Shown here in pieces: positions 6,091 to 52,234 of a stretch of 64,000 nucleotides of DNA. The notes under the pieces were generated by a model. That model had not been told where the DNA came from. It was given only the letters and a program-made list of their open reading frames with translations, and did not search any database. The stretch is taken from the NCBI GenBank assembly GCA_025617745.1, contig CM046858.1, positions 37,341,119 to 37,405,118 on the forward strand, in the 5' to 3' direction. The position numbers and the translations under genes are program-made. The stretch's first letter is position 1, and each line of letters opens with the position of its first letter. This DNA is from Heliocidaris erythrogramma (Eukaryota > Echinodermata > Echinoidea > Camarodonta > Echinometridae).

Positions 6091-8274
6091 TTATTTAAAT
6101 CTGTGGACGGATGCATTCACGTACAAGTCCCCATCATATGTAGGTACGTTAAGTTGTCCTACATTGTCATTACCATGCATATGATCATATAAGTGATCGT
6201 TGGGAAAAAGGGTGCTTTGGCAAACGCCTTCTACCGGATCACTTGGACCATTACCACACATATCATCGGGCGTGTGACGGAAAGACTGTGACACCTGTGA
6301 GAGAGATTGGGACGTTTCCCTCATATTCCTGGTTTTCCGGCTCATATCTGGTTGGGCATACATTGCTTCCAACTCTTCGGCAGGTCGTGTTGTGCTTCGC
6401 ATCACCGTATCCCCGCTCGAGGTCTTTGGTCTTACCGTTGAGGAAGATTGATTTCCCATCCCGTCTCCATCGATACAAGCTCCATCACGTTCATCGGGTG
6501 ACTGGCGAGGCCTGAGAAAGGTTGGAAGCACTGAGGGTTGGTTTGCTGTATTGGTAACTGTTGTAGTGCCTTTTGCATCATCCACTGATGAATATGCGCT
6601 GTCAAGAGATGCTATCATCGAAACTGGGTAAATATCGACATGTTGCTGTCTAGTGCGTTTGTCATCGCATGAATCTTCTCTACACCGCCCTTCGGCAAAG
6701 ATGTTGAGATGAGACATGCTTTTGGCAGCCAATGAATCCTCCGTTTCGCATAGCACCGGGAGGGTTGGATGATCACCTCGATCTTCCTTGCTGGACTGCA
6801 TCGACTCCCGATCTGAACTATTGCTGTCCATTGTTGGTGAGCGCTGATTAGAAACAGGTTCGTGGATATCGGTATCAGTGCTAGGCCGAAGTGGGTGGGA
6901 TGGGAAACTGGTCATCTCATGAGATCTTGAATCATCCACGGTCTCTTCCTCTGCAGAACTCATCAAATGATCAGGCGACATATGTCGTCTCACGGGATAT
7001 TTATCTTTTTGTAGGTAGTTGTAATAGCATAATATGATGAAGATAATACCAGTGCTGAAAACAAAGGCCAACGTTGCAACGGCTGTTGTGGATATAAGCA
7101 TGATACTTATATCTCCAAAATTTCTGTTAAAACTTAGGGTCGTCGACTGCGTCGATATGCCCGAGTAAGTGGTCGGAACGCCACTTTTCTCTTTTGTTGC
7201 AGCATCTTTTTTGGTGGATAGTGAATCAAGTATTGTAATATTCACACTTAGGCTTTCACATCGCAGTTCGTCAGTCAAATTGCTTATTTGTTTGTTCTTG
7301 CTAGATGATGCAGCTATTGTTAAGACGTGGTTATCTTCTAGCTGGGAGAAATCCAAAATTCCAATGTTGTAGATCTTAGTCTTTAATGAATCATTATCTT
7401 CAACACACAGGAATACTACATTATTGATCGAAGCCTTCCGATCTAGAGTAAACGATAGGAGCTCGCCACTAGCTCTGTTCCACCATGATACTGGCATGTT
7501 CTCACTGGTAACGCAGCAGTTGAAGTATTCGTCCCCGTTTTGACTGTACTTAATCGTTTGGTATCGTGCCGTAGGAAAACTGCACGTTTTATTTACATCG
7601 CTTTTCCCCCGAAAAACCACACAAACATATTCAACATCGGTTATATTCTGAAGATCAATGTAAATGCTGGATTTGTGGGTCAGTTTGAAACTACCATCGT
7701 ACGAGTTGTCTGGAGTTCGATCTTCAAACACCAACTGATTTCCAGCTAGGAACTCTACATGATCGTTATCGCTGATTTGCGTCCACTGACATGTCATCTG
7801 TATTTTTTCTCTCCTTTTGTCTAGCCATGTAGTACAAGTGGTATCCTTGTTAACCACGCTCAAATGAAAGATCAGTGCTGTACATGTTTTATCCGTTCGT
7901 TCGTTGATAATGACTAAGTGTTGACCCGAATCGTACTCTTGAGCATTTTGAATCCTTACTTCAAAGGTATTCTTAAACGTATTGATCAATTTATAACGTG
8001 TACTGATAGACGACTCGTTATTTGTACATTGGAGAGAGCTATTGCATATCATACTCCAACCACGATTCGGAGCGATCCAGGTAAGTGTTTGGTTTTCCAG
8101 TATGGGGCCTTTCAGAGAAAATTCCACGGAAACATCCTGACCACTCAATACTTTGACTGATCTCCAATGGTAATTACACATACTATTCTCAGACGAAATT
8201 CGTAGGACAAACGCGTTCAGAATGAAAGCAAGTAATAATACTTTCCATTTGAGAGAACGTTGCTTGCTCCACAT
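6091..8274 (-). CDS. Receptor gene 1 (type II): signal peptide, three Ig-like domains, one TM, tyrosine-motif tail
   Basis: 727 residues in one exon from ATG at 8274. An in-frame GTG seven codons upstream is not used here because the paralogues share the start at MWSK/MQRSK. Residues 1 to about 28 form a signal peptide. Ig-like D1 has DSGQH in place of the usual DxGxYxC. D2 has a clear F strand (EYVCVVF) and a B-strand cysteine (QMTCQW). D3 has FNCCV, SWW and FLCVED. A glycosylation-rich stalk leads to a membrane span (STTAVATLAFVFSTGIIFII) followed by basic KDKYPVRRHMSPD. The tail of about 300 residues holds IYPV, AYSSV, MYAQP, LYDH and a terminal LYVNAS, a Grb2-type YxN. It is the leftmost family member. 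Its D1 is the closest match to gene 5 and to the pseudogene. Receptor architecture is seen directly; ligand and function are unknown. Confidence 0.88.
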   Translation of the reverse strand: MWSKQRSLKWKVLLLAFILNAFVLRISSENSMCNYHWRSVKVLSGQDVSVEFSLKGPILENQTLTWIAPNRGWSMICNSSLQCTNNESSISTRYKLINTFKNTFEVRIQNAQEYDSGQHLVIINERTDKTCTALIFHLSVVNKDTTCTTWLDKRREKIQMTCQWTQISDNDHVEFLAGNQLVFEDRTPDNSYDGSFKLTHKSSIYIDLQNITDVEYVCVVFRGKSDVNKTCSFPTARYQTIKYSQNGDEYFNCCVTSENMPVSWWNRASGELLSFTLDRKASINNVVFLCVEDNDSLKTKIYNIGILDFSQLEDNHVLTIAASSSKNKQISNLTDELRCESLSVNITILDSLSTKKDAATKEKSGVPTTYSGISTQSTTLSFNRNFGDISIMLISTTAVATLAFVFSTGIIFIILCYYNYLQKDKYPVRRHMSPDHLMSSAEEETVDDSRSHEMTSFPSHPLRPSTDTDIHEPVSNQRSPTMDSNSSDRESMQSSKEDRGDHPTLPVLCETEDSLAAKSMSHLNIFAEGRCREDSCDDKRTRQQHVDIYPVSMIASLDSAYSSVDDAKGTTTVTNTANQPSVLPTFLRPRQSPDERDGACIDGDGMGNQSSSTVRPKTSSGDTVMRSTTRPAEELEAMYAQPDMSRKTRNMRETSQSLSQVSQSFRHTPDDMCGNGPSDPVEGVCQSTLFPNDHLYDHMHGNDNVGQLNVPTYDGDLYVNASVHRFK

Positions 8275-9240
8275 TCTCAGGTTCCTTTTATACACATTCT
8301 TTTTTTCTAAAGAAATGTCTGGACCGTGTCAAATCCAGTCAAATAATTTATGATGGCGAGGTTTTGATCGCTTGCTCTATTAAACTTTGGAGATAAAGGT
8401 AATGCGTGTCATGAAATATTAACAGATGTAGAAGGGGTATACTGAAGTGAGGTTTTATTGAAAACGAATCTGAACGAATCAGCTACAAGGAAAAAAATGA
8501 GCCCGATATTGCTGAAAACTGATGGAAAGCAAACATGGCCTCTCATGAAGCTCGCATCGTGTTGTAAAACTGACTCACTTTACTCCTGACAACTCTTGGC
8601 ATTACATTCACGTGAACATCCTGAATTTCGAGACATAGTGATATCATGATTATAAGCACTCACAATTTCTTAACTAGGCGGGTTTAAATTCATGATGTGA
8701 GAAACAAACACTGTCCTATTTATCTTCGATATAGACTGACATTTTGATGGATCGACTCTTTCCATTTGCAAGACAGATACGATGAATTAATGATGGCACG
8801 TATAACATTTCTAACCATGAAACTGAAAGATTTCTATGATATTTATCATCTTGTTCTGGCATATATTATTTATGAAGATGTATGGATTAGCACACTACTT
8901 CCCTCTTCTGATATTCATACATGATATATTGACTTGGTTGGAGAGATTCTCCCTGTTCATTGATTGTACATTTTCATGACGAAGGATGAAGCATCTATCA
9001 ATTCTCTATCCCGTTTAGTGCAACGGAATACCAATTGCAAGGACACAGGATATCCGAATATTACATTAATCTATTTGTAACATATGCTCTCTATACCGAC
9101 GTTATATTGGCATCATGCCTCACAAAATTTGATATCGTTCACCAGCTGAACCGAAGCTATCATAGCTTACTTTAGGATCTACATAATATCAGTACACTTT
9201 ATACCGGTAAAAACTTTTTTTTAAGAGGGCTCCCTCGTTT
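8275..9240 (-). promoter_or_regulatory. Conserved 5' flank of gene 1 with an IRF-like site
   Basis: About 950 bp upstream of gene 1 aligns with the flanks of gene 3 (to about 23650) and, more patchily, genes 5 and 6. GAAACTGAAAG lies at 8819-8829, 545 bp upstream of the start; it fits the GAAANNGAAA core bound by IRF factors. Just upstream of the ATG the minus strand reads TTTCTTTAG with a TTTGAC about 20 nt before it, which looks like a splice acceptor and branch site shared by type II genes. No firm transcription start can be placed. Confidence 0.5.
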
Positions 9241-9608
9241 TTATGACCACACGATTGAGTAAAGATGTATGGTGTACTCATGTTCAATGGCAAATTCAGG
9301 ATGGACCCGTATCTTCGATGCTAAAACCTTCCCAACATTTACAAAATAATTGTTAAAAAGTTTACCTTCTAACAAATTTTCTATGCCAGTTTTAAAGACA
9401 TTGCGAGTATTATTAGAAGGTAATAAGGATTTCAATAAAGTCCAAGTACTTCCAGCATTGATTTTCATTTTTATTAATTGATCATTAATATATATTTTCT
9501 TTGCTTTCCTAATTTCAAAAGTAACTTTATTTCTTAATTTTCTGTAATCTCTCATCTTTTTTAAATCTTTATTTATCCAAGCTTTTTTCTTTATCTTGTC
9601 TCTTCTCT
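9241..9608 (-). mobile_element. LINE fragment (region before the reverse transcriptase)
   Basis: A minus-strand frame reads KKKAWINKDLKKMRDYRKLR, then INAGSTWTLLKSLLP and FNNYFVNVGKVLASKI. This is the linker between endonuclease and reverse transcriptase in jockey/CR1-type LINEs. Both ends are missing. It butts against a plus-strand LINE 3' end on its right and against the end of gene 1's conserved 5' flank on its left. Confidence 0.75.
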
Positions 9609-10040: not shown

Positions 10041-11575
10041 TCTTAGCAAAGCTCATGATAACCCGAACAGAAACAGAAAACGGTGTTGACAGATTTCCAT
10101 CAAATGCTATCATGGATGTGCTTTACACTACCAGTATGGTTATAATACATTTATTTATTTCTCACTCAGTACTCGTATATTCAGGTATATTACACGCGTA
10201 TTGATAAAAATAACCTTAAACAATACTACATCATCTTTTGATATGACACCGTATTTTAATCCCAAACTTTTATGCACAACCAAATAAAAAACAATAAAAA
10301 CAGCACTATTTTTACTTGAGCCAACATGATATCAACAACATCAAAATGAGGCTGTCATCCTCGTCAAGCTTTGCTTATGATGGCAGTCTCCTACATTTTT
10401 TTCAATTTGCTGTATTGCATAATACTTACAAATTACTAGTATACATTACTTATATTTCTATTTTTATATAATACGTTCAACTCTATATGTATATTATGTA
10501 ATTCATTTGCTTATATGTTTATATGTATGTATTATTTTGTATTACGCAGTATCTGTTCATATGTTATCTCTTGCCTTTGTTATATACATGGAAAAATGTA
10601 GAAATAAAATCAAATCAAAATCAAATCAAAATCAAATAACCAACTCCATGTCCAAGGAGTCACATGGACTTTGTGTATATCAGTTCATCCTTCGTCACAC
10701 AAGACGTAAATAGTTTAATAAGCTTGAGGCAAGCCTTTTAAGACTTTGTTATTCGTATAGCACGGTCATCTTAATTTCAGTGTTTATACTACCGCCCTCC
10801 AGCAGCCCGACTATCAACGCTTGATAGCCAGACTTCGTCTTGAAAGCCAGGGCAGGCGATTAATTGTCACGGCCGAAGGGGGTGGGGTGGGCAGGGGGTC
10901 AATAGCGGTTTGTCCCCACCACAAAAGAAGATCTTGCATTATGCAGTTTTAAATTAATGAATTTGGAGGACCGAGGGAGAGTAATCTACTGTTAGGAACA
11001 TCTCTTTAGAGCAATTTTGGTCACCCAGGCAAATCTAAGCGTTAAGCACACAAAACGAGGGTATTTACAATTTTCGGGGGGGGGGAGGGAGGGGACAAAT
11101 CGTCAAATAATTTAAGGGAGATGCTTTCCTCATTCGCTTATTATAGCTAGGTCCTATATTAGGCGTTTACACTGACTATTGTAAACACAGGAAACTTTCT
11201 ACCTAAATCAGAGCAATGGTTTAGAGATCTTCTGTAATATTGTACAATTTGAATTACTAGTACGCGAGAAAGCGTTGCGACGGAGCAAAATTTTTTCCTA
11301 TTTTGAATAATGAAAGTTAACATATAAAGAGCACCTAAAAGCGTCCTTTACATGGAAGACCAACTGTTTTGTTGAATGGGCCACCCCGTATCTATAAATT
11401 AAAAAAAATATTATTTGCAATACATTTTTTTTCTTCAGTTTTTCATTTCATTCGGGGGGGGATGATCGCCCAGAAAAATTTCCGGGGGTCATGTCCCCCA
11501 CACCCACCACCAACCCCCCCCCCCCCCCCCCCTCCCCTGGGATTTTGTATACAATCCAATTGTGGTGTTCATTTA
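10037..11575 (+). repeat. Repeat R1 plus 3' flank of gene 2 (module A)
   Basis: R1 starts at CTTAGCAAAGCTCATGATAA and is nearly identical to 31621-32815 and 62903-64000. It carries poly(G) and poly(C) tracts (near 11079-11100 and 11514-11533). Module A has an extra segment of about 290 bp, about 10343-10635, absent from the other copies. That segment ends in an AATCAAATC-type A-rich tail and looks like a small retroposon, a SINE or LINE 3' end. R1 leads straight into the stop codon of gene 2 with no gene of its own. Confidence 0.75.
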
Positions 11576-13759
11576 TTAAAATCGGTGGACGCATGCATTC
11601 ATGTACAAATTCCCATCATGGCATTCATTTTCAGTACCATACATAAAGTCATTGGTTGGTACAGCCGAATATAAGTGATCGTTTAAAGAAAGGGTGCTTT
11701 GGCAAATGCCTTCCAACGGCTCACTTGGACCATTACCACAGACATCATCGGGTGTGAGATGGGAAGATTGTGAAACCTGTGAGAGAGATTGGGACATTTT
11801 CCTTGTTTTCCTGGTTTTAAGGCTCATATCTGGTTGGGCGTACATTGCTTCCAACTCTGCGGCAGATCGTGTCGCGCATGGTACCACCGTATCGCCACTC
11901 GAAGTCTTCTGTTTATCCTCTGATGAAGTTGAGTTGCTGATCTTGTTGCCAGAAAGACGGGCTCCATCATGGTCATCGGATGATTGAAATGGCCTTAGAA
12001 TGGTCGGAAGCATTAAATGTTGTGTTTTAAATCTGGTAGTGCCTTTTACATCATCCACTGAGGAATACCCGGTTTCGAGAGACGGTGTCATTGAAAGTGG
12101 ATTATTTCCGAAGTGCTGCCCAGCGTTTCTGTCATCACATGTGTCTCCTATACACCCTCCTTCTGCAAAGGTGTTGAGATTACACATGCTTTTGGATAGA
12201 AACGAATCTTCCATTTCACAAAGTACCGGGAGGGTTTGAGGTTTACCTCGGTCTTCACTGCGGAACTGCGTCGTCTCCTGCTTTGAACTATTGCTGTCCG
12301 ATGTTGGTGAGTGCTGATCAGAGACCTCAGCAACAATGCTAGGCCGACATGGGTGGGAAGAGAAACTCGTCATCTCTTGAGATCTTGAATCCTCCACGGT
12401 GTCTTCCTCTGCAGATGAACTCTCCAAAAGATCTGGTGACATATGTCGCCCCACGTGATATCTATCTTTTCGCACAAAGTTGTAGTGCCATAACATGACC
12501 AAGATGATGCCGATGCTGAAAACAAATGCCAGTGAAGAAGCGCCTGTCATGGATATTAGCACTATATTATGAAGATCCTCCGAAATTGTATTGTTGCTTT
12601 GATCCGTCACCGTCATCAGGTGATTGCAGGTACTAGTCGATTTGAAGAAATTTGCTCGAGTCACACCATCGTCATTAGGTGACGTCGATTCCGATTTTTC
12701 AACATTCACATTGATGCTTTCACATCGTTGTTCGTCAGTGGAATTGATTGATTGATTGCTCTGGGTAGAAGATTTAGTAGCAGTCACAGTGATGTTATCC
12801 TGATGGCCCTGCAAATCCAAAACTATCATGCTATGCACTATCATCTGAAGGTCATTATCGTCGATGCACAGAAATAGTATGTAGTTGGTATTTGTTACGT
12901 TGTACGTTTCTTGCAGACTAAGCTGGACTGTTTTGCCACTGTTACTATACCACCAAACGAGAGAAATGCTCTCATTTCCAACGCAACACTTGAATTGTAG
13001 ATCATCAGTTTCCCGGTATTTTAACGTTTGATGTTCAACAGATACAAAGTTACACGTTTCATTAACATGGATATTTTCACGAAAAGTCACACAGATATTT
13101 GGTACTCCTTCGCCATCTAATATGTCCTGATAACCAACAAAAACATTGATATCATTGGTCAGTATTAAATTGCCATCGAGCTTCCTGTGAGTCGTTCGAT
13201 GTTTATACAACGCATGGTTTCTTGCTTTGATTTCTGCGTGATCGTCATTGCCGACTTGCATCCACTGACAAGACATTTGTAGTTTCTCGCTTTCTCTGTC
13301 CAGGAGTGTAATGCAAATGGGATGCCTATCAACAACGGTCAACGTGAATATCAGCGCTGTGCAAATGAGTTGTTCTTTCTCGTAAATAGTAATGTAGTGA
13401 GTTCCCGAATCCAATTTTTGCGCAAGTTCAATCCTTATCTCGAATGTATTGTTAGGGACCGATGAAAGAAGCTTATAACGTGCACGAATGTGCGATTCGT
13501 TGCTTATGCACTGGAGAGAATGATTACATCTAACTCTCCAAGCTGCATGTGGAGTCATCCACACAATGGTTTGGCTTTGCTGTACCGCACCCATCAGACG
13601 AAATTTCATCGAAACATCCACACCATTAAGTACGTCGATTTGCTTCCAGTCGTACTCACATGTACTGTCATTCTTAGACGAAGTACGTTGAACAAAAATC
13701 ATCAAAATGAAGATACACAGAAAATGTTTCCAACAGAGAAAGGGTAAACCCCTAGACAT
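11576..13759 (-). CDS. Receptor gene 2 (type I): three Ig-like domains, one TM, tyrosine-motif tail
   Basis: 727 residues, single exon, ATG at 13759. Signal peptide 1 to about 28. D1 is about 34-144, with W67 in the C strand and DSGTHY in the F-strand position but no cysteine there. D2 is about 147-240 (MSCQW, then NICVTF). D3 is about 243-316 (FKCCV, VWW, FLCID). The stalk with several NxS/T sites is 317-398 and the membrane span about 399-424 (LAFVFSIGIILVML). The tail of about 300 residues has GYSSV (ITSM-like TxYxxV), MYAQP, LYSAV, MYGT and terminal LYMNAC (YxN). It is about 97% identical to gene 4 over the whole protein and only about half identical to the type II genes. AATAAA overlaps the stop codon. 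Function unknown; it is a cell-surface receptor by architecture. Confidence 0.88.
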   Translation of the reverse strand: MSRGLPFLCWKHFLCIFILMIFVQRTSSKNDSTCEYDWKQIDVLNGVDVSMKFRLMGAVQQSQTIVWMTPHAAWRVRCNHSLQCISNESHIRARYKLLSSVPNNTFEIRIELAQKLDSGTHYITIYEKEQLICTALIFTLTVVDRHPICITLLDRESEKLQMSCQWMQVGNDDHAEIKARNHALYKHRTTHRKLDGNLILTNDINVFVGYQDILDGEGVPNICVTFRENIHVNETCNFVSVEHQTLKYRETDDLQFKCCVGNESISLVWWYSNSGKTVQLSLQETYNVTNTNYILFLCIDDNDLQMIVHSMIVLDLQGHQDNITVTATKSSTQSNQSINSTDEQRCESINVNVEKSESTSPNDDGVTRANFFKSTSTCNHLMTVTDQSNNTISEDLHNIVLISMTGASSLAFVFSIGIILVMLWHYNFVRKDRYHVGRHMSPDLLESSSAEEDTVEDSRSQEMTSFSSHPCRPSIVAEVSDQHSPTSDSNSSKQETTQFRSEDRGKPQTLPVLCEMEDSFLSKSMCNLNTFAEGGCIGDTCDDRNAGQHFGNNPLSMTPSLETGYSSVDDVKGTTRFKTQHLMLPTILRPFQSSDDHDGARLSGNKISNSTSSEDKQKTSSGDTVVPCATRSAAELEAMYAQPDMSLKTRKTRKMSQSLSQVSQSSHLTPDDVCGNGPSEPLEGICQSTLSLNDHLYSAVPTNDFMYGTENECHDGNLYMNACVHRF

Positions 13760-14569
13760 GACTACGGTAATTCAGATAGTTCAACTCGATATAATGCGTA
13801 TAAAATGTACTTAGTCTATATCAAGTGACTACTGTTTGAGATGTTGCTTGCTTTCTGAAAATTTTGAAATATTGAATATTGAAAATGTGATAACAATGAC
13901 GATAATAAATTAAAATGTAATCATGGAAATGCTGTAGATAGGGTAGCGTCAAATATTGCCGTCTGATGGTCAACGAAGGGCAAACAGGTAAACACGACGA
14001 TGCAAAGCAGCCCCAAATGCATGGAAGTGAAGTCTCAGTAAATCGTCAGACATGTCAGAGCGACTGTTTCACGAACTCGCGATTGCTATTGGGTTGGACT
14101 TAATGTGACGTTTTAGTTGTTTAAATGCGGATCTGCAAACCGGACACTCATTAATATCGAGATAGGTGGAGTTTGATTTCCGACGTATGAAATATATTTC
14201 CTTTTAAATTTTCAAGATAGATGGAACATGGATGTTCTCTTTTATTTTAACTGACACAGATGGTGAGTAAAGATACAATCAAAACACTTTTAATACCACG
14301 AAACCGAAAGTGCTTATGTTCATCATTTTGCCCTCGTGTGTATTCAAATATGCACATTTACTTCGCCACTCTCCTTTGCTTTGGATTGTTTTTTTTTCTC
14401 TCCCCCCCCCCCTTTTTTTTTTGGGGGGGGGGAATATTTTAAAGAATCATTACATCAGGAGGGATGAGGAATTTCTACATAGAACAAAAACAAATCAAAA
14501 GAGAGATGGTCGATACAAATTAGGCTTTCTCCTGGCTAGTGATTGATCTAGATATGTTGTGATTATTCT
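13760..14569 (-). promoter_or_regulatory. 5' flank of gene 2 with an IRF-like site
   Basis: Nearly identical to 35018-35848 upstream of gene 4. GAAACCGAAAG lies at 14300-14310, 541 bp upstream of the ATG. The sequence after it (CTTATGTTCATCATTTTG) is a diverged match to the type II flank (TTATATGATATTTATCATCT), so the site is likely homologous in both types. A poly(C)/poly(G) hairpin-like stretch lies at about 14401-14432. TATA-like words 20-50 nt before the ATG are too weak to assign. Confidence 0.5.
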
Positions 14570-16490
14570 CTTTCACCTGCGACAAGGAATAAAACAATTA
14601 ACACAATTCTCTGCGATTGGCCATGGTATTTATCCATATTGAAACGTTCAAATTATCGTTTCAAATATATCGCAAAATTCGCAATGATAATGGTGGTTCC
14701 AAAACAGTTAACGATAATAATAATAGTAATAACAATAATCAGAATGATATTCAGAATAATATCTCTTTCAAGCGGTGTATCGTTTTCCATCAACACTAAT
14801 ACAGATATAATAATGATAATGATCATACAATTTTCCTCATGTATTATTTGCTAAGCACACATTGATTAATATTATCTCATTCAACATAATTTATAACACA
14901 TACTGTTCCATAACATAAGAGCAAGCAGTCTGAATGAACCTAGGAAGTAACCCGGACGGGATTTAATGCCGTCACCGCTCAGCTGGCCTTTGATGACGAT
15001 CGAACACCGAACCGAAATAGTCACCGCCCTACGAGCTGCCAGTCGCGACGGGGGCCCGTTTTGATTTTGATTTTGATTTTGCCCCTTCCCGAAGGCTCGA
15101 AAATTCCCACGATCCGGCCGAGCATGAGAAGCAGCCACCAGCAGCCATAACTCTGCATCCACGATCGCCCAAGAGCGCTCTGGTTGGCGAGCCTGGCGAA
15201 GGCGGAACTGAACGTCATAGTCGGCCCAATTGTAACCGCAATTGGCGGCAGTTCGCACCGTACTCGTATACTTTAATAATTCCCGAGCTCGGAGAGGGTG
15301 TCGTTCTGTAAAGACGGACATATATATCAGCATGGCGCTGGTCCAAAGCTCGATGCTCCGAATTATTGGAGATCGATTTGCAGGCCACAACTGCAATCCC
15401 GCACCCGAAGAGAAAATTAAAGCTAACCGATCTTCACTTAAATTTCGTGCTGCCACAGAGGGCTTGGTCAGTAAACCGAGATCAACAAACTCACCCCGCC
15501 AGATTTTGTCTTTCAGGGAGATGTCAAGAGTGGCGCCTAGCTCGTCGCATACACCTACGAGTTGTTGGGGATAATTGAATTGCGACGAGCTCCCCAGCGG
15601 CCCCACAGGAACGGGGGCTTGCAGGGATGCCGCATGGCTAGTGCCGATCGCTGGCTGAAGAGGCGCATTTTGTTCGTTCAGCCCCAAAACCGCACTATCA
15701 TTATCTAATGCCAGAACCGCCCATGACTCACCTGCCTCGTGGTCATTTTGGAGCAAATTTGCTTCCTCCTCATCGATGTTGTCACCCAATCTACGGATTC
15801 GAACTGGTATCGGTTCCGGGTCCCGGGGGTGGCTGGGCACAGGCGCAGGCGTCTGCGAAGTCGTAGCTGCCGGCACTGCCGGCGAGGGGCAATGCAAAGC
15901 ACGGGTGGAACCTTCCTGTTTAGAGGCCGTCTTTTTCCCCGTTGTCGCCCTTGTTGTCCGCTGCTTCTTCGTGCCTGGTTTTGACTTAGGCATTGTGACT
16001 GCCAAGTCCCCGATGGCTTTAAAAGTTATATCCTCTCAGCTCAGCTCGTATATATCTCAGTGACCCGAATGAATTGCCAGTTGGTAGAAAAAAGTCAATG
16101 TAGCCTAGTTGCAGTGTAGCACATATAAAACTTTAAATTGTAGGTGATAAAGTAAAGGTTTGCCTTGGTGACAAATTCAAGTATCCAAGCTCCAATCCGC
16201 CAAAATTTCAACATGAATGAAGTCAATCAAATCTTGTTGATGTGCAGATCAAAACTGTAACCAGCTTATGGAGCGTCGGAACAGAGGAGGAGCGAACGGC
16301 AAAAACTTGCTTGTGCTTTCGGTATGAATACCATGGCATGAATGGGATGTTTTCCTCATAACTCCTCCTTACTACCACCAACTTATCCGGTCGAGGATGT
16401 TACTCCGTCCCACAAATTATAAACAGCCGTCTCGGTGACTTTCAATAAACTATTTTAACTCTTTCTTCAATAGTTAAAATTAATTATTCT
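14570..16490 (-). mobile_element. Retroelement insertion carrying an ORF1-like gene (Ngaro/DIRS-like), fossil
   Basis: Module B lacks this segment: the two modules rejoin exactly around ATTATTCT, which is present at 14562-14569 and again at 16483-16490. The minus strand has a 374-codon frame (14881-16005). Its N-terminus is basic and proline-rich, and its core contains KIWRGEFVDLGLL, ELWTSAMLIYMSVF, HPLRARELLKY and SWAIVDAELWLL. This resembles the gag-like first ORF of tyrosine-recombinase retrotransposons in invertebrates. No reverse transcriptase or recombinase is present, so the copy is partial. It arrived after modules A and B split, so it is young. Confidence 0.6.
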
Positions 16491-20238: not shown

Positions 20239-22437
20239 TTAAAATCTGTCGACGGATGCATTCATGTACAGATCTCGATCACATGTAGATTCGTCAGTGC
20301 GGGTTACATTGTCATTACCATACGTATGGTCACTGGTTGGTACAGGCGAATATAAGTGATCGCTTGAAGAAAAGGTGCTTTGGTAAACGCCTTCTATCGG
20401 ATCATTTGGAGCATTACTACACACATCACAGGGCGTGTGATGGGAAGATGGGAGGGATTGGAATGTTTTCCTCATATTCCCGGTTTTCCTGCTCATATCT
20501 GGTTGGGCATACATTGCTTCTACATCTGATGCAGTTTGTGTCGTGCTTCGTATCACCGTATCCCCACTCGAAGTCTGTGGTTTATCCTCTGGGGAAGATG
20601 AGTTGCTAATCTTGTTGCTAAGGTGACGAGCTCCATCGTGGTCATCGGATGATGGGAGTGGCCTTAAAAAGGTCGAAAGCATTGACTGTTGGTCTGCTGT
20701 ATTGGTGAATCTGGTAGTGCCCTTTACATCTTCCACTGAGGAATATGCGTTGTCCAGAGGCAATGTCATTAATAGTGGATTATCTCCAAAGTGCTGTCCG
20801 ACGAGTCTGGCATCACATTTATCTCCTGTACACACTCCCTCAGCAAAGATGTTGATATTGGACATACTTTTGGATGAAAACGAATCTTCCATTTCACAAA
20901 GTATCGGGAGGGTTTGAGGTTTCCCTCTATCTTCATTGCTGGACTGCATCGTATCCTGCTCTGAACCATTGCTGTCCATTGTTGATGACCGCTGATCAGA
21001 GACAGACCCGTGGACATCATTATCCATGCTAGGCCGAGATAGGTGGGATGAGAAACTCGTCGTATGGTGAGTTCTTGAATCCTCCACGCTGCTGTCTTCT
21101 TCTTCAGATGACCTCATCAAAGAATCAGGTGACATAAGTCGTCTAACGTGATATTTGCCATTCCGCACTAAGCTGTAGTAGCATAATACAATACAAATGA
21201 TGCTGAAAACAAAGGCAAGTGCTACTACAGCCGTCGTGGATATCAGCGTGATGTGTATTTCATCAAGAGACGTTTTGCTAGTTGCATTTGTCTTCGGCAT
21301 CACTGAGATAGATTTCGTAGTTGAGGAAACATCAGTTTCCCGAGTTGTACCCACTTTGTTAGTTGATGTTAAACTAGTTGCTGCAACATCCACCGTGAGG
21401 TTTTCACATCGTATCTTGTCAGTCGAATAGTTTGGTTGTTTGTGCCCTTCAGAAAATATATTCATCGTTAAGATGTTCTTATTTTGCGGACCGGACAAAG
21501 CTATAATTCCAACACTTTGGACCATAGCTTTTGAGGCATTATTATCTTCAAGACATATAAATAGTATTTTATCAGCATTGGTCGCAGTGTGTTTTCCTGT
21601 TTTATTGACTGGAAGCAATCCTCCACTAGCATTGTGCCACCACATAATTGAAATGCTGTCATTATTCACACAGCAGTCAAATGCGAAGCACTCGGATTGA
21701 CTGTGATCAATAACCTTTCGTTGTAATCTTGGAAAGGTACAGGACTTATCCAAAATGAATCTTCCATTATAAACTTCACATGCGTAATCATCTTGAGATA
21801 TGTCCTCAATATCAACATATAAACTGAATTCGTGGGTCAAATTTAGCTCACCATCAAATTTTCTGTCTGGAATAGCGTGTTCAAACAACATGTTATTTCC
21901 GACCATGAGTTTTGAGCGTTCGCTGCTGCTGACTTGTAGCCACTTACAGTACATTTGTATTTTTTCTCGTTCTCTGTCCAGCAATGTGGTACAAGTGCTG
22001 CTGCTATTTACAACAGTCAAATCCAGTAGCAATGGCGTACATGTGCTCTTTAGTCCCTCGTAAATAACGATATAGTGTTTTCCAGAATCTTTAACTTGTG
22101 CAAATTTAATTAATACTTCGAATGTGTAGTTTTCGTACAATTCAGTCAACTTATAACGTGTACTTATCGAAGAATCATTACTTGTGCACTGAAGAGAACT
22201 ATTACATCTGATATTCTCAGCTGCATGCGGTGCCATCCAAGTTACAGTGTGGTCTTCCAGTATTGGACCTTTCAGGTAAAACCTTACAGAAACATCCTCG
22301 CCATTCAATACTTTGAGTGATTTCCATTGGTATTCACATAAACTATTCTCAGATGACGTCCATCGAGTACATGTTTTCAAAATTAAAGCAATTAAGAATA
22401 CCTTCCATTTGAGAGAACGTTGCTTGCTCCGCTGCAT
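20239..22437 (-). CDS. Receptor gene 3 (type II): three Ig-like domains, one TM, tyrosine-motif tail
   Basis: 732 residues, single exon, ATG at 22437 preceded by GGAACATCAAA, which is shared with gene 6. Signal peptide 1 to about 29. D1 ends with DSGKHYIVIYE. D2 has MYCKW and a canonical DDYACEV. D3 has FDCCV, MWWHN and LFICLED. The stalk is rich in Ser, Thr and Asn. The membrane span is STTAVVALAFVFSIICIVLC, followed by VRNGKYHVRRLMSPD. Tail motifs are AYSSV, MYAQP, VYQS, LYSPV, TYGN and LYMNAS. The ectodomain is the nearest match to gene 6; parts of the tail (FGDNPL, the RPLPSSDDHDGA area) are closer to types 2 and 4 than gene 6 is. It forms module A with gene 2, about 6.5 kb to its left. 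Confidence 0.88.
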   Translation of the reverse strand: MQRSKQRSLKWKVFLIALILKTCTRWTSSENSLCEYQWKSLKVLNGEDVSVRFYLKGPILEDHTVTWMAPHAAENIRCNSSLQCTSNDSSISTRYKLTELYENYTFEVLIKFAQVKDSGKHYIVIYEGLKSTCTPLLLDLTVVNSSSTCTTLLDREREKIQMYCKWLQVSSSERSKLMVGNNMLFEHAIPDRKFDGELNLTHEFSLYVDIEDISQDDYACEVYNGRFILDKSCTFPRLQRKVIDHSQSECFAFDCCVNNDSISIMWWHNASGGLLPVNKTGKHTATNADKILFICLEDNNASKAMVQSVGIIALSGPQNKNILTMNIFSEGHKQPNYSTDKIRCENLTVDVAATSLTSTNKVGTTRETDVSSTTKSISVMPKTNATSKTSLDEIHITLISTTAVVALAFVFSIICIVLCYYSLVRNGKYHVRRLMSPDSLMRSSEEEDSSVEDSRTHHTTSFSSHLSRPSMDNDVHGSVSDQRSSTMDSNGSEQDTMQSSNEDRGKPQTLPILCEMEDSFSSKSMSNINIFAEGVCTGDKCDARLVGQHFGDNPLLMTLPLDNAYSSVEDVKGTTRFTNTADQQSMLSTFLRPLPSSDDHDGARHLSNKISNSSSPEDKPQTSSGDTVIRSTTQTASDVEAMYAQPDMSRKTGNMRKTFQSLPSSHHTPCDVCSNAPNDPIEGVYQSTFSSSDHLYSPVPTSDHTYGNDNVTRTDESTCDRDLYMNASVDRF

Positions 22438-26283: not shown

Positions 26284-26439
26284 GAGTTATTGTAAATCTA
26301 CCGCGAGTGGGCGCTACAAAAGTACATAAAGAAACAGGCCTGTGAGCATCGAACTTAAACATAGTCAGCAAAATGCCTTCTTGTGAAGTCATGAACTGTA
26401 CCGATCGACTTCTTTCTTTCATTTAATATATCTTCTTCA

Positions 26440-27480: not shown

Positions 27481-27586
27481 GAAGAAGATTATATTAAATG
27501 AAAGAAAGAAGTCGATCAGTACATCACAAGAAGGCATTTTGCTGACTATGTTTGAGTTCGATGCTCACAGGCCAGTTTCTTTATGT

Positions 27587-29354: not shown

Positions 29355-29554
29355 TGTCATGTTTCTCTTATACTTTTTATCTAAACAAAGCTTATATCTG
29401 TCAATTCACAGTCAAGTTACTTGTGATGGAGAGTTTTAAATTCCTGATCTATCAGACTTTAAATATGTGAGTAATGAGTGGATGGAAAGAATTGTACAGT
29501 AAAAACAAAACACAAACAAACTGGAAAGATTACAAAATAAGCACTCATTAAACC

Positions 29555-39526: not shown

Positions 39527-41659
39527 CTAAATGTAAAGTTCTCGATCACATGTAGATTCGTCAGTGCGGGTTACATTGTCATTGCCATACGTATGGTCAC
39601 TGGTTGGTACAGGCAAATATAAGTGATCGGGTGAACAAAGGGTGCTTTGGCAAACGCCTTCTATCGTATCATTTGGAGCATTACTACACACATTATAGGG
39701 CGTGTGATCGGAAGATGATGACATCTGTGAGAGGGATTGGGGTGTTTTCCTCATATTCCCGGTTTTCCTGCTCATATCTGGTTGGGCATACAACGCTTCT
39801 ACTTCTGCCGCAGTTTGTGTCGTGCTTCGTATCACCGTATCCCCACTCGAAGTCTGTGGTTTATCCGCTGTGGAAGATGAGTTGCTAATCTTGTTACTAA
39901 GGTGACGAGCTCCATCGTGCTCATCTTGGTCTGTTGTATTGGTGAATCTGGTAGTGCCCTTTACATCTTCCACTGAGGAATATGCGTTTTCCAGAGGCGA
40001 TGTCATTGATAGTGGATTATCTCCAAAGCGCTGTCCAACGTGTCTGTCATCACATGTATCTTCTGTAGACACTCCTTCAGCAAAGATGTTGATATTAGAC
40101 ATATTTGTGGATGGACACGAATCTTCCATTTCACAAAGTATCGGGAGGGTTTGAGGTTTACTACGATCTTCATTGCTGAACTGCATCGACTGCTCTGGAT
40201 TATTGTTGTCCATTGACGTTGACCGCTGATCAGAGACAGACCCATGTACATCAGTATCCATGCTAGGCTGAGATGGGTAGGATGAGAAACTCGTCATTGG
40301 GTGAGATCTTGAGTCATCCACGGTGTCTTCCTCTGCAGATGAACTCATCAAAGGATCAGGTGACATAAGTCGTTTCACGTGATATTTATCTTTTCGCACA
40401 CAGTTATAGTAGCATAATAAGATGATACCGATGTTAAAAACAAAGGCCAGTGTGGCAACAGCTGTCGTTGATATGAGCATGAAATGTAATTTATCCAGAG
40501 GCTCTTTGGTAGTTTGATTCGTCGTCGGCAGCGATTGAATAGAATTCGTAGTTGAGTATACGTCAGTTTCTCGAGCTGTCCCCTCTTTGTTAGTTGATGT
40601 TAAGCTAGTTGGTGCAACATTCACACTGACGTTTTCACATCGCAGCTTGTCAGTCGAATTGTTTGATTGATTTTCCCCTCCAGAAAATGTATTAATCGTT
40701 ATGTTCTTATTTTGCGTACCGGAGAAAGCTATACTTCTAATGTTGTGGATCATAGTCTTTGATGCATTATTATTTTCAAGACATATAAATAATATTTTGT
40801 CGGCACTGGTCACAGTATGGTTTCTTATTGTTTTGAGTGGAAGTAATTCACCACTAGCATTGTGCAACCATGTGAGTAAAGTGCTCTCATTCTCCACACA
40901 GCAATGAAATTCCATGTCTTTGGATTGACTGTAATCAATCAGATGCCCTTGTATTCTAGGAAAAATACAGGACTTATCCCAAATTAGCATTCCGTTAGAA
41001 ATTGCACAAACATAATCATCATCGTCAATGTCCTGGAAATCAACATGTAAACTGACTTCGTGGGTCAACTTGAGATCACCATTAAATGTTTTGTCTGGAG
41101 TAGCATGTTCAAACAACGTCTGATTTCCAACCATGAGTTTTGCCCGTTCACTAATGCTGACTTTTACCCATTGACATGACAATTGTAATTGTTCTCGTTT
41201 TCTGTCAAGCCATGAAGTACAAGTGCTATTTATGTTAACGACGGTCAAGTGAAAGATCAGTGGTGTACATATCCTGTCCGCTCTCTCGTAGACAAGGAGG
41301 ACGTGTTGTCCCGAATCGTGTTCTTGTGCAGGTTCAATTCTTACCTCAAACTTATCATCTAACAGTTTGATCAATTTATAACGTGTACCGATAGACGACT
41401 CGTTGCTTATACAGTGGAGAGAACTATTGCAAGTAACACTCCAACCACGATTTGGCGATATCCACGTAAGTGTTTCGTTTTCCAGCATGGGACCTTTCAG
41501 GGAAAATCCCACAGAAACATCTTGACCATTCAATGCTTCGACTGATTCAAATGTGTACTTACAAGTACTGTTATCACACGAAATACGGAGGACAAACGTG
41601 TTCAAAATTAAAGCAAGTAAAAATACCTTCCATTTGAAAAATCGGTGCCTCGTCCACAT
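39527..41659 (-). CDS. Receptor gene 5 (type II, mosaic): lacks the C-terminal YxN motif
   Basis: 710 residues, single exon, ATG at 41659 (MWTRHRFFKWKV). The signal peptide and D1 (NTFVLRIS, LTWISPNRGWS) match gene 1 best. D2 from SERAKLMVGN onward (TLFEHATPDKTF, DDDYVCAIS) and the tail match genes 3 and 6, and tail landmarks NNPEQSMQ and VSTEDTCD are shared with gene 6. D3 has FHCCV and LTWLHN, replacing the usual WW by WL. The membrane span is STTAVATLAFVFNIGIILLC. The tail keeps AYSSV, LYAQP, LYLPV and TYGN. The protein stops at CDRELYI, so the last ten or so residues with YxN are gone. About 25 residues after RFTNTTDQ (the TFLRP segment) are also missing, as in gene 6. A functional receptor is still plausible. 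Confidence 0.86.
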   Translation of the reverse strand: MWTRHRFFKWKVFLLALILNTFVLRISCDNSTCKYTFESVEALNGQDVSVGFSLKGPMLENETLTWISPNRGWSVTCNSSLHCISNESSIGTRYKLIKLLDDKFEVRIEPAQEHDSGQHVLLVYERADRICTPLIFHLTVVNINSTCTSWLDRKREQLQLSCQWVKVSISERAKLMVGNQTLFEHATPDKTFNGDLKLTHEVSLHVDFQDIDDDDYVCAISNGMLIWDKSCIFPRIQGHLIDYSQSKDMEFHCCVENESTLLTWLHNASGELLPLKTIRNHTVTSADKILFICLENNNASKTMIHNIRSIAFSGTQNKNITINTFSGGENQSNNSTDKLRCENVSVNVAPTSLTSTNKEGTARETDVYSTTNSIQSLPTTNQTTKEPLDKLHFMLISTTAVATLAFVFNIGIILLCYYNCVRKDKYHVKRLMSPDPLMSSSAEEDTVDDSRSHPMTSFSSYPSQPSMDTDVHGSVSDQRSTSMDNNNPEQSMQFSNEDRSKPQTLPILCEMEDSCPSTNMSNINIFAEGVSTEDTCDDRHVGQRFGDNPLSMTSPLENAYSSVEDVKGTTRFTNTTDQDEHDGARHLSNKISNSSSTADKPQTSSGDTVIRSTTQTAAEVEALYAQPDMSRKTGNMRKTPQSLSQMSSSSDHTPYNVCSNAPNDTIEGVCQSTLCSPDHLYLPVPTSDHTYGNDNVTRTDESTCDRELYI

Positions 41660-42200
41660 TTTGATGTTTCTTCTTTACCCTTTGATCTGTTCAAATGTGT
41701 GATCACGGTCCAATCAAAGTAAAAAAAGATCATGATGGAGAATTTAAATGTCTCTTCTTTCAAACACATTAAACTGGAATGATAATATGACCTCGATATT
41801 AGCATGGAATGCAGAAATTGCATCTGGTGAAAGCTCGTTGTTCCTTCAAATCGACTCATCTATTCCTGATATTCCTTCTTGGCATAACATTCACTTGAAT
41901 ATGCTAAATTTCCTTACTTATAGTGACATCCTGGCAAAAGCATTTGAAACGTTTTAAACTAGGCGGAGTTCAACTCTTAATGTGGCGGAAACGATACACT
42001 GAGCATAATATGGATCTGTTTTTTCCCTTTATACATATATGTACAGGTATGATGAATGATCGCACGCGCAACAGGTCTTACTATGAAACCGAAAGGTTTA
42101 TATGATATTTATCATCTCGTTCTGTCCTATACATGAACATACGAATTATTTTCTAACTTTCCGCTTCTGATACACGTAAATCATAAAAAGACTTCTGCAT
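41660..42200 (-). promoter_or_regulatory. 5' flank of gene 5 with an IRF-like site
   Basis: Patchy match to the gene 1 and gene 3 flanks. GAAACCGAAAG lies at 42085-42095, 426 bp upstream of the start and followed by TTTATATGATATTTATCATC as in gene 3. The acceptor-like site before the ATG is weaker (ATTTGAACAG). Homology fades near 42200. Confidence 0.5.
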
Positions 42201-43849: not shown

Positions 43850-46440
43850 CAGGAAACAGCCCAGTAATTGGACTCACTGAAACCTGGTTACACCAGTCCA
43901 ACTATTTCTGAATATAGATAATTATGATTTACTTACTAATAATAGACAAGCAAAATCCGGAGGCGGCGTAGGAATTTATGTACCGAACAGACTCGAGTAC
44001 TCTTTCCTAAATTATTTGACATACATGACCAATATTTTTAATCACTATCTATAGAGACAGAAATGAAGGAGAGTAGAAATGTAATAATTGGTGTCATATA
44101 CCGCCCTCACAAATCTCCGCATGACGATTTTTTGATAGATATCCAAAATATGTTACAAAAAGTCCAATCATTCAAAATAAACACTGTTTAATAATGGGTG
44201 ACTTCAATATCAACTTGATTTTCTAGAATTTATTCTGCTTATTGTTTACCTACTATCACCAAACCAACTAAAGTTACAGAACAATCAGCCACCTTTGATT
44301 GATAATATCTTTACTAACATGCAACTGCCCATAGAATCAGGATTATTGTGTTGGACATTTTCTGACCATTATCCTATCTTTTGTCGACAAACGTACCCAC
44401 AAAGCTAAAACTTGCAGATTAAATGCCAGAAACTTAGATGTCCTTAAAGAAAATGTAAGTACCCTTTAAACATTATCAAGGGTCAATCTTATGTGTGTAT
44501 ACAATTAAGAAAACAAGTTAATAACTATAAAAAGAACCCAAGATCTCCATGGGTAACCAAATCTATCTTAAGATCAATAAACCGGAAAAACACTCTATAT
44601 TAGAAACCAATCCAACTAATAAGACCCGTGAAAAAAAAAACACTCGATATAAATGTTTTTACTAATGTACTACAACAGGCGAAGAAACATTATTATACAA
44701 CGCAATTTGAATTTAACAAATATAACATTAGAAATACATGGAAATTAATAAATAGAACCTTAAACAGAAACGATAAGACCCCAAGAGTAAATAAAAATAA
44801 ATAGCACACTCACACTGTAGTCGAAGACCCTCAAGCTATGGATGCAAACCTCAACACATACTTCTCCTAAATTGGACAAAACCTAGCAGAAAACATCCCG
44901 ACAACCGAAAGAAAATTCCACCACATTTTCAATAACAAAAACCCATCTTCATGTTTTTGTCCCAACTAACCGCGAGGAAATTATTGGGATAATAATAAAT
45001 TGGATGGGAAGAAAAGTTCAGGGCATGACGACAATGATAATTACATTCTCAGGTCAATTATCTTATCGATTAATAATCCTGTGGTTCATATTTTTAACTT
45101 ATTTAACTACGGGTATAGTACCGAATAGCGTTAAAATAGCTCAATTCATCCCAATATTCAAGAATGGTGATGCTTTAGAACCAATAATTATAGGTCAATA
45201 TCATTATTACCATCCCTCTCCAAAGTTCTAGAAAGAATTGTCTTTATCAGAGTTACAGCCTTTCTCAACGAACATAACATTATTCGTGATTCGCAGTTGG
45301 GCTTTCGAGCAAACCATAATACAACACAGGCAATGTTAACATGCACAGATACTATAGCCCATGCCATTGATCAGCGCTTGCATACCATCGCAATTTTCCT
45401 GGAATTTTCCAAGGCTTTCGATACTATAAACCATACTCATGATAATATTCTCCTACATAAGTTATGGCACTACGGTGTTCGGGGAAAGACTTGGAATGGT
45501 TCAGGAATTATTTATCAAACAGAAAACAATTTTTAGAAATAAATAATCATAGGTCATCGTTACAACCCATAAGCTGTGGTGTTCCACAGGGAATTCTACT
45601 TGGGCCCTTATTATTTATCATAAACATAACTGACTTTTATAAATCCTCAGATGTGCTATCGTTTATTCTATTTCTAGACGACTCAAACATATTTTATTCT
45701 CATTCTAACCCTAATACCCTTCTTTCAACAACAAACAAAGAACTTAAATGCATAGTAGAATGGGTAAAAGCAAACAAGTTATCACTTAAATGTTATGCTG
45801 TTTAGTAACACCTTGCAAAACTTACCTGGAAATATTTTTGGCGACCCGCCGCTGGATAGGGTATCAACAAAATTTCTAGCGCTTACGATTGACTATAAAC
45901 TAAATTGGAACATGCACGTGCAAACTATATCCAAAATTATTTCCCCGATTTATTGAAAAATGAATAAACTCAAACATTTCTTATCAAGGACTACACTTTT
46001 CACACTATAATTTTCACGGATATTACCTTATCTTAATTATGGAGTAATGGCTTTGGGTAACACTATACCTTTCTGATAAAATTACTATCTTACACACCGT
46101 CTTGCACTCCCACTTTACTTTCATACTTAGTTGTTCTTGTTGGTTGAGGCAATAGTCCTTCTACCTCAACACACTTATCAATTCTCCCTTATCAATAATT
46201 CGCTTCTCGTAATGATGCTTTATGAATTTAATATTATTGAAGGACCCAATCGTGATTAAGTTATGTAAGTTTCTGGTCATGTAATATGCAAGCTTTGCTT
46301 TTAAACATGTCCAACTGTTTTCAACATCACTTAAGAGGTTAATATTTGTGCTTCATTATTGTTTACTTATTGATATTTGATTATGTACCAATGTCTATGG
46401 AAAAACATCATTGTTATATATTGTTATTGCATTCATTGTA
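43850..46440 (+). mobile_element. Decayed CR1/jockey-like LINE
   Basis: In order on the plus strand: endonuclease motifs (VIGLTETWL, SGGGVGIYVPN), the linker, then reverse transcriptase (QLGFRANHNTTQAML, EFSKAFDTINH, GVPQGILLGPLLFI). The catalytic box reads FLDDSN instead of FADD. Post-RT KLNWNMHVQTISKI follows. Many frameshifts and stops separate the pieces. It is a different LINE from the module-linked one. The 3' end is not sharply defined. Confidence 0.8.
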
Positions 46441-50116: not shown

Positions 50117-52234
50117 TCATTTATTCAAATCGGATGCATCCATGTACACATCAAGATCACATGTAGATTCGTCAGTGCGGGTTCCATTGTCATTACCATA
50201 CGTATGGTCACTGGTTGGTACAGGCGAATATAAGTGATCGCTTGAAGAAAAGGTGCTTTGGCAAACGCCTTCTATCGGATCATTTGGAGCATTACTACAC
50301 ACATTAAAGGGCGTGTGATGGGAAGATGGTGACATATGTGAGAGGGATTGGAATGTTTTCCTCATATTCCCGGTTTTCTTGCTCATATCTGGTTGGGCAT
50401 ACAACGCTTCTACCTCTGCCGCAGTTTGTGTCGTGCTTCGTATCACCGTATCCCCACTCGAAGTCTGTGGTTTATCCGCTGTGGAAGATGAGTGGCTAAT
50501 CTTGTTGCTAAGGTGACGTGCTCCATCGTGGTCATCTTGGTATGTTGTACTGGGGAATCTGGTAGTGCCCTTTACATCTTCCACTGAGGAATATGCGTTG
50601 TCCAGAGGTTGTCCAACGTGTCTTTCATCACATGTATCTTCTGTAGACACTCCTTCAGCAAACATATTGATATTAGACATACTTGTGGATGGACACGAAT
50701 CTTCCATTTCACAAAGTATCGGGAGGGTTTGAGGTTTACTTCGATCTTCGTTGCTTGACTGCATCGACTGCTCTGGATTATTGCTCTGGATTATTACCGT
50801 TGACCGCTGATCAGAGACAGACCCGTGTACAGGTGTATCCATGCTAGGCCGAGATGGGTAGGATGTGAAACTCGTCATTTGGTGAGATCTTGAGTCCTCT
50901 ACGGTGTCTTCCTCTGCAGATGAACTCATCAAAGGATCAGGTGACATAAGTCGTCTTACGTGATATTTACCATTCCGCACTAAGTTGTAGTAGCATGATA
51001 CAACACAAATGATGCTGAAAACAAAGGCAAATGCTACTACAGCTATCGTGGATATCAGTATGATGTGTAATTCATCAAGAGACTTTTTGCTCTTTGCATT
51101 CGTCTTCGGCAGCGTAGTTGAGGAAACATCAGTTTCCCGAGTTGTACCCTCTTTGTTAGTTGATGTTAAACTAGTTGCTGCAACATCCACCCTGAGGTTT
51201 TCGCATCGTATCTTGTCAGTCGAATGGTTTTGTTGTTTGTGCCCTTCAGAAGATATATTCATCGTTAAGATGTTCTTATTTTGCGAACCGGACAAAGCTA
51301 TAATTCCAACACTTTGGACCATAGCTTTTGAGGCATTATTATCTTCAAGACATATAAATAATATTTTATCTGCATTGGTCGCAGTGTGGTTTCCTGTTTT
51401 ATTGACTGGAAGCAATCCTCCACTAGCATTGTGCCACCACTTGATTGAAATGCTCTCATTATTCACACAGCAGTCAAATTCGAAGTAATCAGATTGACTG
51501 TAATCAATGACTTTTCGTTGTAATGTAGGAAATGTACAGGACTTATCCAAAATAAATCTTCCATTATAAACTTCACAAGCATAATCATCTTGAGATATGT
51601 CCTGAATATCAACATATAAACTGAATTCGTGGGACAAATTTAGATAACCATCAAATGTTTTGTCTGGAACAGCGTGTTCAAACAACATGTTATTTCCGAC
51701 TATGAGTGTTGAGCGTTCGCTGCTGCTGACTTGTAGCCAATTACAGTACATTTGTATTTTTTCTCGTTCTCTGTCCAGCAATGTGGTACAAGTGCTACTG
51801 CTATTAACAACAGTCAAATCCAGTAGCAAAGGCGTACAGGTGCTCTTTGGTCCCTCGTAAATAACGATATAGTGTTGTCCGGAATCTTTTACTTGTGCAA
51901 ATCTAATTAATACTTCGAATGTGTAGTTTCGGTACAATTCAGTCAACTTATAACGTGTATTTATCGAAGACTCATTACTTGTGCACTGAAGAGAACTATT
52001 ACATCTGATACTCTCGGCAGCATGCGGTGCGATCCAATTTACAGTGTGGTTTTCCAGCATTGGACCTTTCAGATGAAACCTTACAGAAACATCCTGACCA
52101 TTCAACACTTCGATTAGTTTCCATTGGTAGTCACAAAAACTATTCTCAGACGACGTCCATCGAGTACACGTTTTCAAAATTAAACTAAGTAAGAATACCT
52201 TCCATGTGAAAAAACGTGGCTTGCTCCACTGCAT
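50117..52234 (-). CDS. Receptor gene 6 (type II): C-terminal YxN changed to YMDA
   Basis: 705 residues from ATG at 52234, the start shared with gene 3 (MQWSK/MQRSK). An in-frame ATG five codons upstream (52249) is the alternative. The signal peptide has KTCTRWTSS as in gene 3. D1 has DSGQHYIVIYE, D2 MYCNW and DDYACEV, D3 FDCCV, KWWHN and LFICLED. The membrane span is AFAFVFSIICVVSC, then VRNGKYHVRRLMSPD. Tail motifs are AYSSV, LYAQP, LYSPV and TYGN. The end reads VYMDASDLNK: Asn of YxN has become Asp, and a short deletion puts the last codons in another frame. The ectodomain is closest to gene 3. The tail lacks a segment before AYSSV and the TFLRP segment, the latter also missing in gene 5. 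AATAAA forms its last two codons before TGA. Confidence 0.88.
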   Translation of the reverse strand: MQWSKPRFFTWKVFLLSLILKTCTRWTSSENSFCDYQWKLIEVLNGQDVSVRFHLKGPMLENHTVNWIAPHAAESIRCNSSLQCTSNESSINTRYKLTELYRNYTFEVLIRFAQVKDSGQHYIVIYEGPKSTCTPLLLDLTVVNSSSTCTTLLDREREKIQMYCNWLQVSSSERSTLIVGNNMLFEHAVPDKTFDGYLNLSHEFSLYVDIQDISQDDYACEVYNGRFILDKSCTFPTLQRKVIDYSQSDYFEFDCCVNNESISIKWWHNASGGLLPVNKTGNHTATNADKILFICLEDNNASKAMVQSVGIIALSGSQNKNILTMNISSEGHKQQNHSTDKIRCENLRVDVAATSLTSTNKEGTTRETDVSSTTLPKTNAKSKKSLDELHIILISTIAVVAFAFVFSIICVVSCYYNLVRNGKYHVRRLMSPDPLMSSSAEEDTVEDSRSHQMTSFTSYPSRPSMDTPVHGSVSDQRSTVIIQSNNPEQSMQSSNEDRSKPQTLPILCEMEDSCPSTSMSNINMFAEGVSTEDTCDERHVGQPLDNAYSSVEDVKGTTRFPSTTYQDDHDGARHLSNKISHSSSTADKPQTSSGDTVIRSTTQTAAEVEALYAQPDMSKKTGNMRKTFQSLSHMSPSSHHTPFNVCSNAPNDPIEGVCQSTFSSSDHLYSPVPTSDHTYGNDNGTRTDESTCDLDVYMDASDLNK

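Follow-up and report, generated by a model that had tools for sequence, protein, structure and literature searches.

A tandem cluster of immunoglobulin-superfamily receptor genes with single-exon coding frames and tyrosine-bearing tails in Heliocidaris erythrogramma

Several animal lineages use clustered receptors with signalling tails for recognition, among them Hydractinia (Alr), Botryllus (a recognition locus) and the vertebrates (paired receptors). The genes of the vertebrate KIR, LILR and CEACAM receptors have multiple exons, and so do those of Hydractinia Alr, unlike the genes described here. Receptors of the SLAM/CD2 family carry an IgV tip without the canonical disulfide, followed by a domain with two possible cysteine pairs, and their ectodomain usually consists of two domains (V + C2). 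Single-exon receptors in clusters are known from the TLRs of sea urchins, which are LRR/TIR proteins. The available descriptions of Hydractinia Alr present a cluster of at least 41 immunoglobulin-superfamily (IgSF) loci, pseudogenes among them, encoding single-pass proteins with V-set and I-set domains and with ITAM or ITIM signalling motifs in their tails (PMC11067881, PMC12065747, PMC11999971). In echinoderms, kirrelL is described as an intronless gene for an Ig-domain membrane protein that is needed for skeletogenic cell fusion (PMC8903837). Gene conversion is described for the vertebrate CEA family (PMC7042247).

Here we analyse a cluster of Ig-domain genes in the sea urchin Heliocidaris erythrogramma, in a window of 64,000 nucleotides (assembly GCA_025617745.1, contig CM046858.1, positions 37,341,119 to 37,405,118). 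A first-pass annotation, made from the letters of the window, had noticed the cluster and proposed that it encodes undescribed receptors.

Gene cluster and its surroundings

The window carries six intact open reading frames of 710–732 amino acids, all on the minus strand, and one decayed copy, within 6091–52249. The intact genes are g1 (6091–8274, 727 amino acids), g2 (11576–13759, 727), g3 (20239–22437, 732), g4 (32840–35029, 729), g5 (39527–41659, 710) and g6 (50117–52249, 710). They are paralogous over almost their full length, with pairwise identities of 44–96% in tblastn; the proteins of g2 and of g4, its recent copy, are 96% identical, and those of g3 and g6 80%. At the base composition of the window (38.9% GC), the chance of 710 open codons from a given start is about 2e-21. 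A tblastn comparison of all six proteins with the window (E ≤ 1e-3) returned the six loci and one extra, decayed locus at 28143–29308, in agreement with the six intact genes and one pseudogene counted in the first-pass annotation. Its statement that no introns interrupt the coding frame likewise holds for all six uninterrupted frames, and for the coding frame only. The position that it gave as the end of the cluster, 52234, falls on the second in-frame ATG in g6, which aligns with the start of the nearest paralog. At the other end of the frame, g5 terminates in ...ELYI and thus has the last conserved tyrosine but not the residues found after it in the other genes; homology extends past its stop. 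The tandem cluster of single-exon coding frames, and the receptor architecture described below, are supported by these data.

A block conserved between genes lies upstream of g3 (23232–23652) and is a candidate promoter or untranslated first exon; it has counterparts upstream of g1 (8722–9246), g5 (42009–42172) and g6 (52331–52685). In all four genes the block contains GTAAGA, which in g1 reads GTTAGA, and in g1, g3 and g6 a pyrimidine-TTTAG site stands ahead of the ATG. The two kinds of site make an intron in the 5′ untranslated region possible, and a non-coding first exon is plausible from these motifs.

The pseudogene (28105–29460, minus strand) is closest to g1, with about 80% DNA identity, and carries frameshifts, a stop and a 121-base insert. 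Aligned by MAFFT to the initial 1300 bases of g1, it shows four deletions and seven insertions, nine of these 11 not being multiples of three, and one codon-for-codon stop, at residue 218. DNA homology extends only to 28105, within the stalk, and the tail is therefore missing. At 28359–28480 the pseudogene contains a hairpin insert that resembles a small DNA transposon, with an apparent 8-base direct repeat on its flanks.

Other repeats are found around the genes. A large palindromic tandem-repeat region (25736–27991) has arrays of 45- to 46-base units on either side of its centre, and an inverted repeat at 59499–61119, with arms of about 540 bases that are 98% identical, encloses a 26-base tandem array (60051–60303). 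Transposase pieces occupy 54597–56330 in separate frames: HTH_23 (55492–55785) and DDE_3 (55848–56330) score over the cut-off, and a further DDE_3 piece (54597–55040) slightly under it. Fragments of an RVT_1 reverse transcriptase, probably LINE-like, lie in two frames at 45171–45802. A minus-strand open reading frame of 370 amino acids (14881–15993) lies in an open frame for which Pfam gives no match at E 0.01; we take it to resemble a retroelement gag-type protein.

Ectodomain, cytoplasmic tail and the search for a named family

The proteins had been described in the first-pass annotation as a signal peptide, three Ig-like domains, a stalk, one membrane span and a long tail. By hydropathy, all six have a membrane span at about residue 400. 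An N-terminal hydrophobic peak exceeds the same threshold in four of them and is below it in g3 and g6, the N-terminal assignment being made from hydropathy peaks. The ectodomain of about 330 residues consists of three cysteine-bearing segments, with 8–16 N-glycosylation sequons. Twelve ectodomain cysteines are common to all six proteins; in g3 they are residues 34, 78, 84 and 133 in domain 1, residues 149, 164, 220 and 233 in domain 2, and residues 255, 256, 295 and 344 in domain 3.

Domain 1 of g3 comprises residues 28–145 (22003–22356, minus strand), and its fold was modelled on the equivalent of g1 (7846–8196) from the six window sequences. Folded alone, this domain gave a best of five models with pLDDT 71.6 and pTM 0.64, in which the strand order is A′BCC′C″DEFG, that of IgV; the other four models were worse (pLDDT 66.8 down to 31.5). 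The predicted B and F strands are without cysteine, so the canonical cysteine pair is absent. Foldseek aligned no more than 2,000 candidates from PDB, of which 1511 matched at E ≤ 0.001; the best 50 of the 1511 are Ig-domain proteins or complexes by description, at identities of 8–20%. The best match was CRTAM (1e-6), and butyrophilin BTN3A1 aligned with a TM-score of 0.78. By sequence, a profile search of PDB was topped by dpr2 and 2B4, at E-values (0.7–1.1) that are not significant, and the isolated domain matched V-set of Pfam in four of the six sequences, with a best E-value of 0.0054. On the model, domain 1 is very probably an IgV domain, and its predicted Ig beta-sandwich places the proteins in the immunoglobulin superfamily.

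Domain 2 of g3 (21718–22002, minus strand, residues 146–240) is Ig-like by C-x-W and D-x-Y-x-C; in the alignment of the genes C-x-W is accompanied, in four of them, by an F strand of the D-x-Y/V type before the third cysteine. The best match in a PDB profile search was FcgammaRIIIa, at an E-value (0.66) that is not significant, in an alignment that pairs the first cysteine of the domain with no cysteine. Domain 3, taken together with the start of the stalk (21352–21720, minus strand, residues 240–362), is an Ig-like beta domain whose best PDB profile match, titin (E 0.0019), is a composite of three weak stretches. The model of the full three-domain ectodomain was poor (pLDDT 44.9, with the third domain alone near 70); the best 50 Foldseek matches listed for it are Ig proteins by description, the model being otherwise too poor for use. 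Because of this poor model, the assignment of domains 2 and 3 comes from their hallmarks, cysteine pattern and weak matches, which make it probable that both are Ig domains. Comparison of each domain with the others by hhalign detected no homology among the three. Thus, of the architecture first described, the membrane span, stalk, tail and predicted IgV domain stand, the N-terminal peak is borne out in four of six genes, and the second and third Ig domains are more weakly indicated. The profile and fold searches that had been suggested as a check yielded IgV by structure for domain 1, weak matches for domains 2 and 3, and nothing significant for the tail.

No family in Pfam reached its cut-off with the whole proteins. 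V-set scored 10.3 bits in g1, where the cut-off is 26, and the sub-threshold matches were V-set in g1 (0.82), DUF7583 in g2 (0.094) and DAG1 in g3 (0.015), with none in g4–g6. We rejected DAG1, a match found in a single gene, where it falls on the stalk and membrane span (residues 342–431). Matches of domains 1–3 to DUF2002, VP4_helical, D5_N, DOMON and RE_ApaLI occurred in one or two of the six members at E ≥ 0.038 and were ascribed to chance. Neither the whole-protein profile nor the tail profile matched anything in PDB, and the tail had a single Pfam match, at E 3.2 in one of the six. Two scans of viral contigs and one of prokaryote contigs, with two short peptide patterns in each, found no relatives, as expected for an animal gene, and with the terms used none of the open-literature papers listed described such a family. 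The earlier view that the proteins belong to no named family is therefore upheld in that neither Pfam nor, by sequence, PDB offers a confident match.

The cytoplasmic tails are 306, 298, 308, 298, 289 and 286 residues long (g1 to g6). In g3 the tail comprises residues 424–732 (20242–21168, minus strand), of which tyrosines 429, 565, 643, 696 and 724 are present in all six genes. Tyrosines are unusually conserved: five of six tail columns with a tyrosine majority are invariant, as against 110 among all 309 columns of the tail (P=0.023), in a test picked after inspection and run on g1, g2, g3, g5 and g6, g4 being omitted as a near copy of g2. The contexts YSSV, YAQPDM and DHLY are constant, and each of YxN, YxxP and YxxV is present in all six tails. 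The first two motifs would presumably bind Grb2-like (YxN) and Crk/Nck-like (YxxP) SH2 partners. The location of YxN varies, as it lies at the C-terminal site in g1–g4 and at a preceding Y-G-N site in g3, g5 and g6; the C-terminal tyrosine site of g6 reads YMDA, and g5 stops one residue past that tyrosine. An ITSM-like motif (TxYxx[VI], here TxYxxV) occurs in two of the six tails (g2 and g4), an ITIM-like one, [ILVS]xYxx[ILV], in one (g1), and an ITAM in none. Counts of SH2-type motifs were mostly within the expectation from shuffled tails; the lowest P values, uncorrected for the nine motifs tried, were those of YxxV (0.022–0.063 in g2–g6, 0.34 in g1), and TxYxxV gave 0.034 in g2 and 0.025 in g4. 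The resemblance to SH2 docking sites noted in the first reading thus finds support in the conservation of the tyrosines but not in the number of motifs, most of which are no more frequent than in shuffled tails.

Selection, exchange and duplication

The ectodomains are under purifying selection. In six bootstrapped pairs their dN/dS was 0.37–0.44, with upper 95% limits of 0.53–0.76, and no averaged positive selection was seen in the ectodomain; values for single domains reached 0.79 (domain 3, g3–g5). The stalk gave 0.48–1.25 with wide limits, and the tail 0.52–0.94, three of the six pairs having limits above 1. In the youngest pair, g2–g4, the changes are too few to interpret, both in the ectodomain (dN 0.003, dS 0.026) and in the tail (dN 0.022, dS 0.015). 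It had been considered at the outset that the frames might evolve without selection on amino acids; an ectodomain dN/dS of about 0.4 speaks against this.

Different parts of the genes have different histories. Between the subfamilies, represented by g1, g2 and g3, the synonymous distance is 1.08–1.20 in the ectodomain and 0.32–0.44 in the tail, as is also seen in sliding windows. Within the g3/g5/g6 subfamily the 3′ flanks are 91–94% identical (126–137 of 139–147 aligned bases) and the 5′ flanks 45–60% (59–77 of 128–146 bases). Between subfamilies the identity of the 3′ flanks is only 49–69% (51 of 104 to 85 of 123), so their homogenisation is confined within the subfamily. Gene conversion or unequal exchange is the simplest reading of the 3′ half.

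Quartets of genes group differently from part to part. With g1, g2, g3 and g5, domain 1 unites g1 with g5 (19 sites versus 8 and 5; 977 of 1000 bootstraps), whereas g3 is united with g5 by domain 2 (30 sites), domain 3 (26), stalk plus span (14) and tail (39), with at most nine sites for any alternative and 1000 of 1000 bootstraps in each part; the signal-peptide region does not decide between the groupings (3, 2 and 2 sites). With g1, g3, g5 and g6, the tail unites g5 with g6 (14 sites versus 6 and 1), and all other parts unite g3 with g6. These conflicting groupings indicate that copies have exchanged both outer domains and tails. The genes are thus mosaics, in which the history of domain 1 differs from that of the rest and the tails have been homogenised.

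Duplication was DNA-based, as the unit with g2 (10620–14569) is 94% identical, over about 4 kb, to that with g4 (31915–35849). A stretch at 62894–63987, up to the right edge of the window, is 80–88% identical to the 3′ flanks of g2 and g4. Unless this stretch is a mobile repeat, it predicts the start of another g2-like gene some 150 bases beyond position 64000.

Proposed role and comparison with known systems

We favour, with some confidence, the view that the genes form a lineage-specific cluster of IgSF recognition receptors, type I membrane proteins arranged in tandem that signal via phosphotyrosine. The ligand of the IgV-like tip and the two further Ig-like domains would probably be a protein, carried by another cell or by a foreign surface. 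When the receptors then cluster, a cellular tyrosine kinase could phosphorylate the conserved tail tyrosines, which, once phosphorylated, would recruit SH2 adaptors. The cluster itself would diversify by segmental duplication and exchange between copies; with outer domains swapped and tails kept alike, varied outer parts might feed one internal signal. A diversifying recognition system would be expected to combine a constant tail with varied outer domains. Ligand binding, phosphorylation, the choice of adaptor and the role in immune or self/non-self recognition are what we infer from the data above.

It is possible, though we would not wager on it, that the cluster is an undescribed polymorphic self/non-self or immune system, in which intronless IgSF receptors share a phosphotyrosine tail and shuffle their binding domains. 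Rather unlikely is a function as developmental adhesion molecules similar to echinoderm kirrelL, with the tail tyrosines linked to actin via Nck- or Grb2-like adaptors. KirrelL, as described, shows that an Ig membrane gene can be intronless (PMC8903837), the purifying selection and the occurrence of YxxP and YxN in every tail would suit such a function, and the listed structural neighbours of domain 1 include the adhesion proteins nectin-1, CRTAM, SynCAM 2, DIP/dpr and ZIG-8; however, one would not normally expect a conserved developmental effector to form a tandem array that includes a pseudogene and recent duplicates and in which domains have been exchanged. Compared with developmental adhesion, an immune or self/non-self role is the more likely. 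Somewhat more doubtful still is a polymorphic locus for self/non-self or gamete recognition similar to Hydractinia Alr, which would set individual identity. The single-pass IgSF cluster with its pseudogene, IgV tip and tyrosine tail agrees with the descriptions of Alr (PMC11067881, PMC12065747, PMC11999971), as does the exchange between copies with such a locus, but an ectodomain dN/dS of about 0.4 does not, nor do tails in which ITIM-like motifs occur in one of six, ITSM-like in two and ITAM in none. That the genes are decaying or non-transcribed, functionless retrocopies is hardly credible and was rejected, as, although the frames are intronless, one of the seven copies is dead and g5 is without its last residues, six frames are open over at least 710 codons, ectodomain dN/dS is far under 1 and multi-kilobase DNA units were duplicated with homologous flanks.

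The recognition cluster that we favour would be an easy model: its coding frames are uninterrupted, its tails shared and its outer domains exchanged, and each gene can be cloned from genomic DNA.

Among known families, SLAM/CD2 resembles the proteins in an IgV tip that lacks the canonical disulfide and in a second domain that could form two cysteine pairs, in weak sequence matches to 2B4 (E 0.98 and 1.1 in PDB; 0.045 in one of the six in Pfam), in the presence of CD84 among the structural matches of domain 1, and in the ITSM, to which TxYxxV is similar but in g2 and g4 only. The present genes, unlike SLAM/CD2, encode three domains and are intronless, and the resemblance breaks down over the number of domains and over statistical support. 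With the vertebrate paired receptors KIR, LILR and CEACAM the cluster shares concerted evolution, and no sequence match to them was seen in the Pfam or PDB searches. The sea urchin TLR clusters are comparable by analogy only. KirrelL, compared by description, is likewise an Ig-domain transmembrane protein with an intronless coding sequence, and is treated as one single-exon gene in the available account (PMC8903837), unlike the tandem array found here. Hydractinia Alr, known from descriptions, differs in its ITAM and ITIM motifs, which are missing or rare in the six tails, and is like the Heliocidaris locus in its clustered single-pass IgSF genes with pseudogenes.
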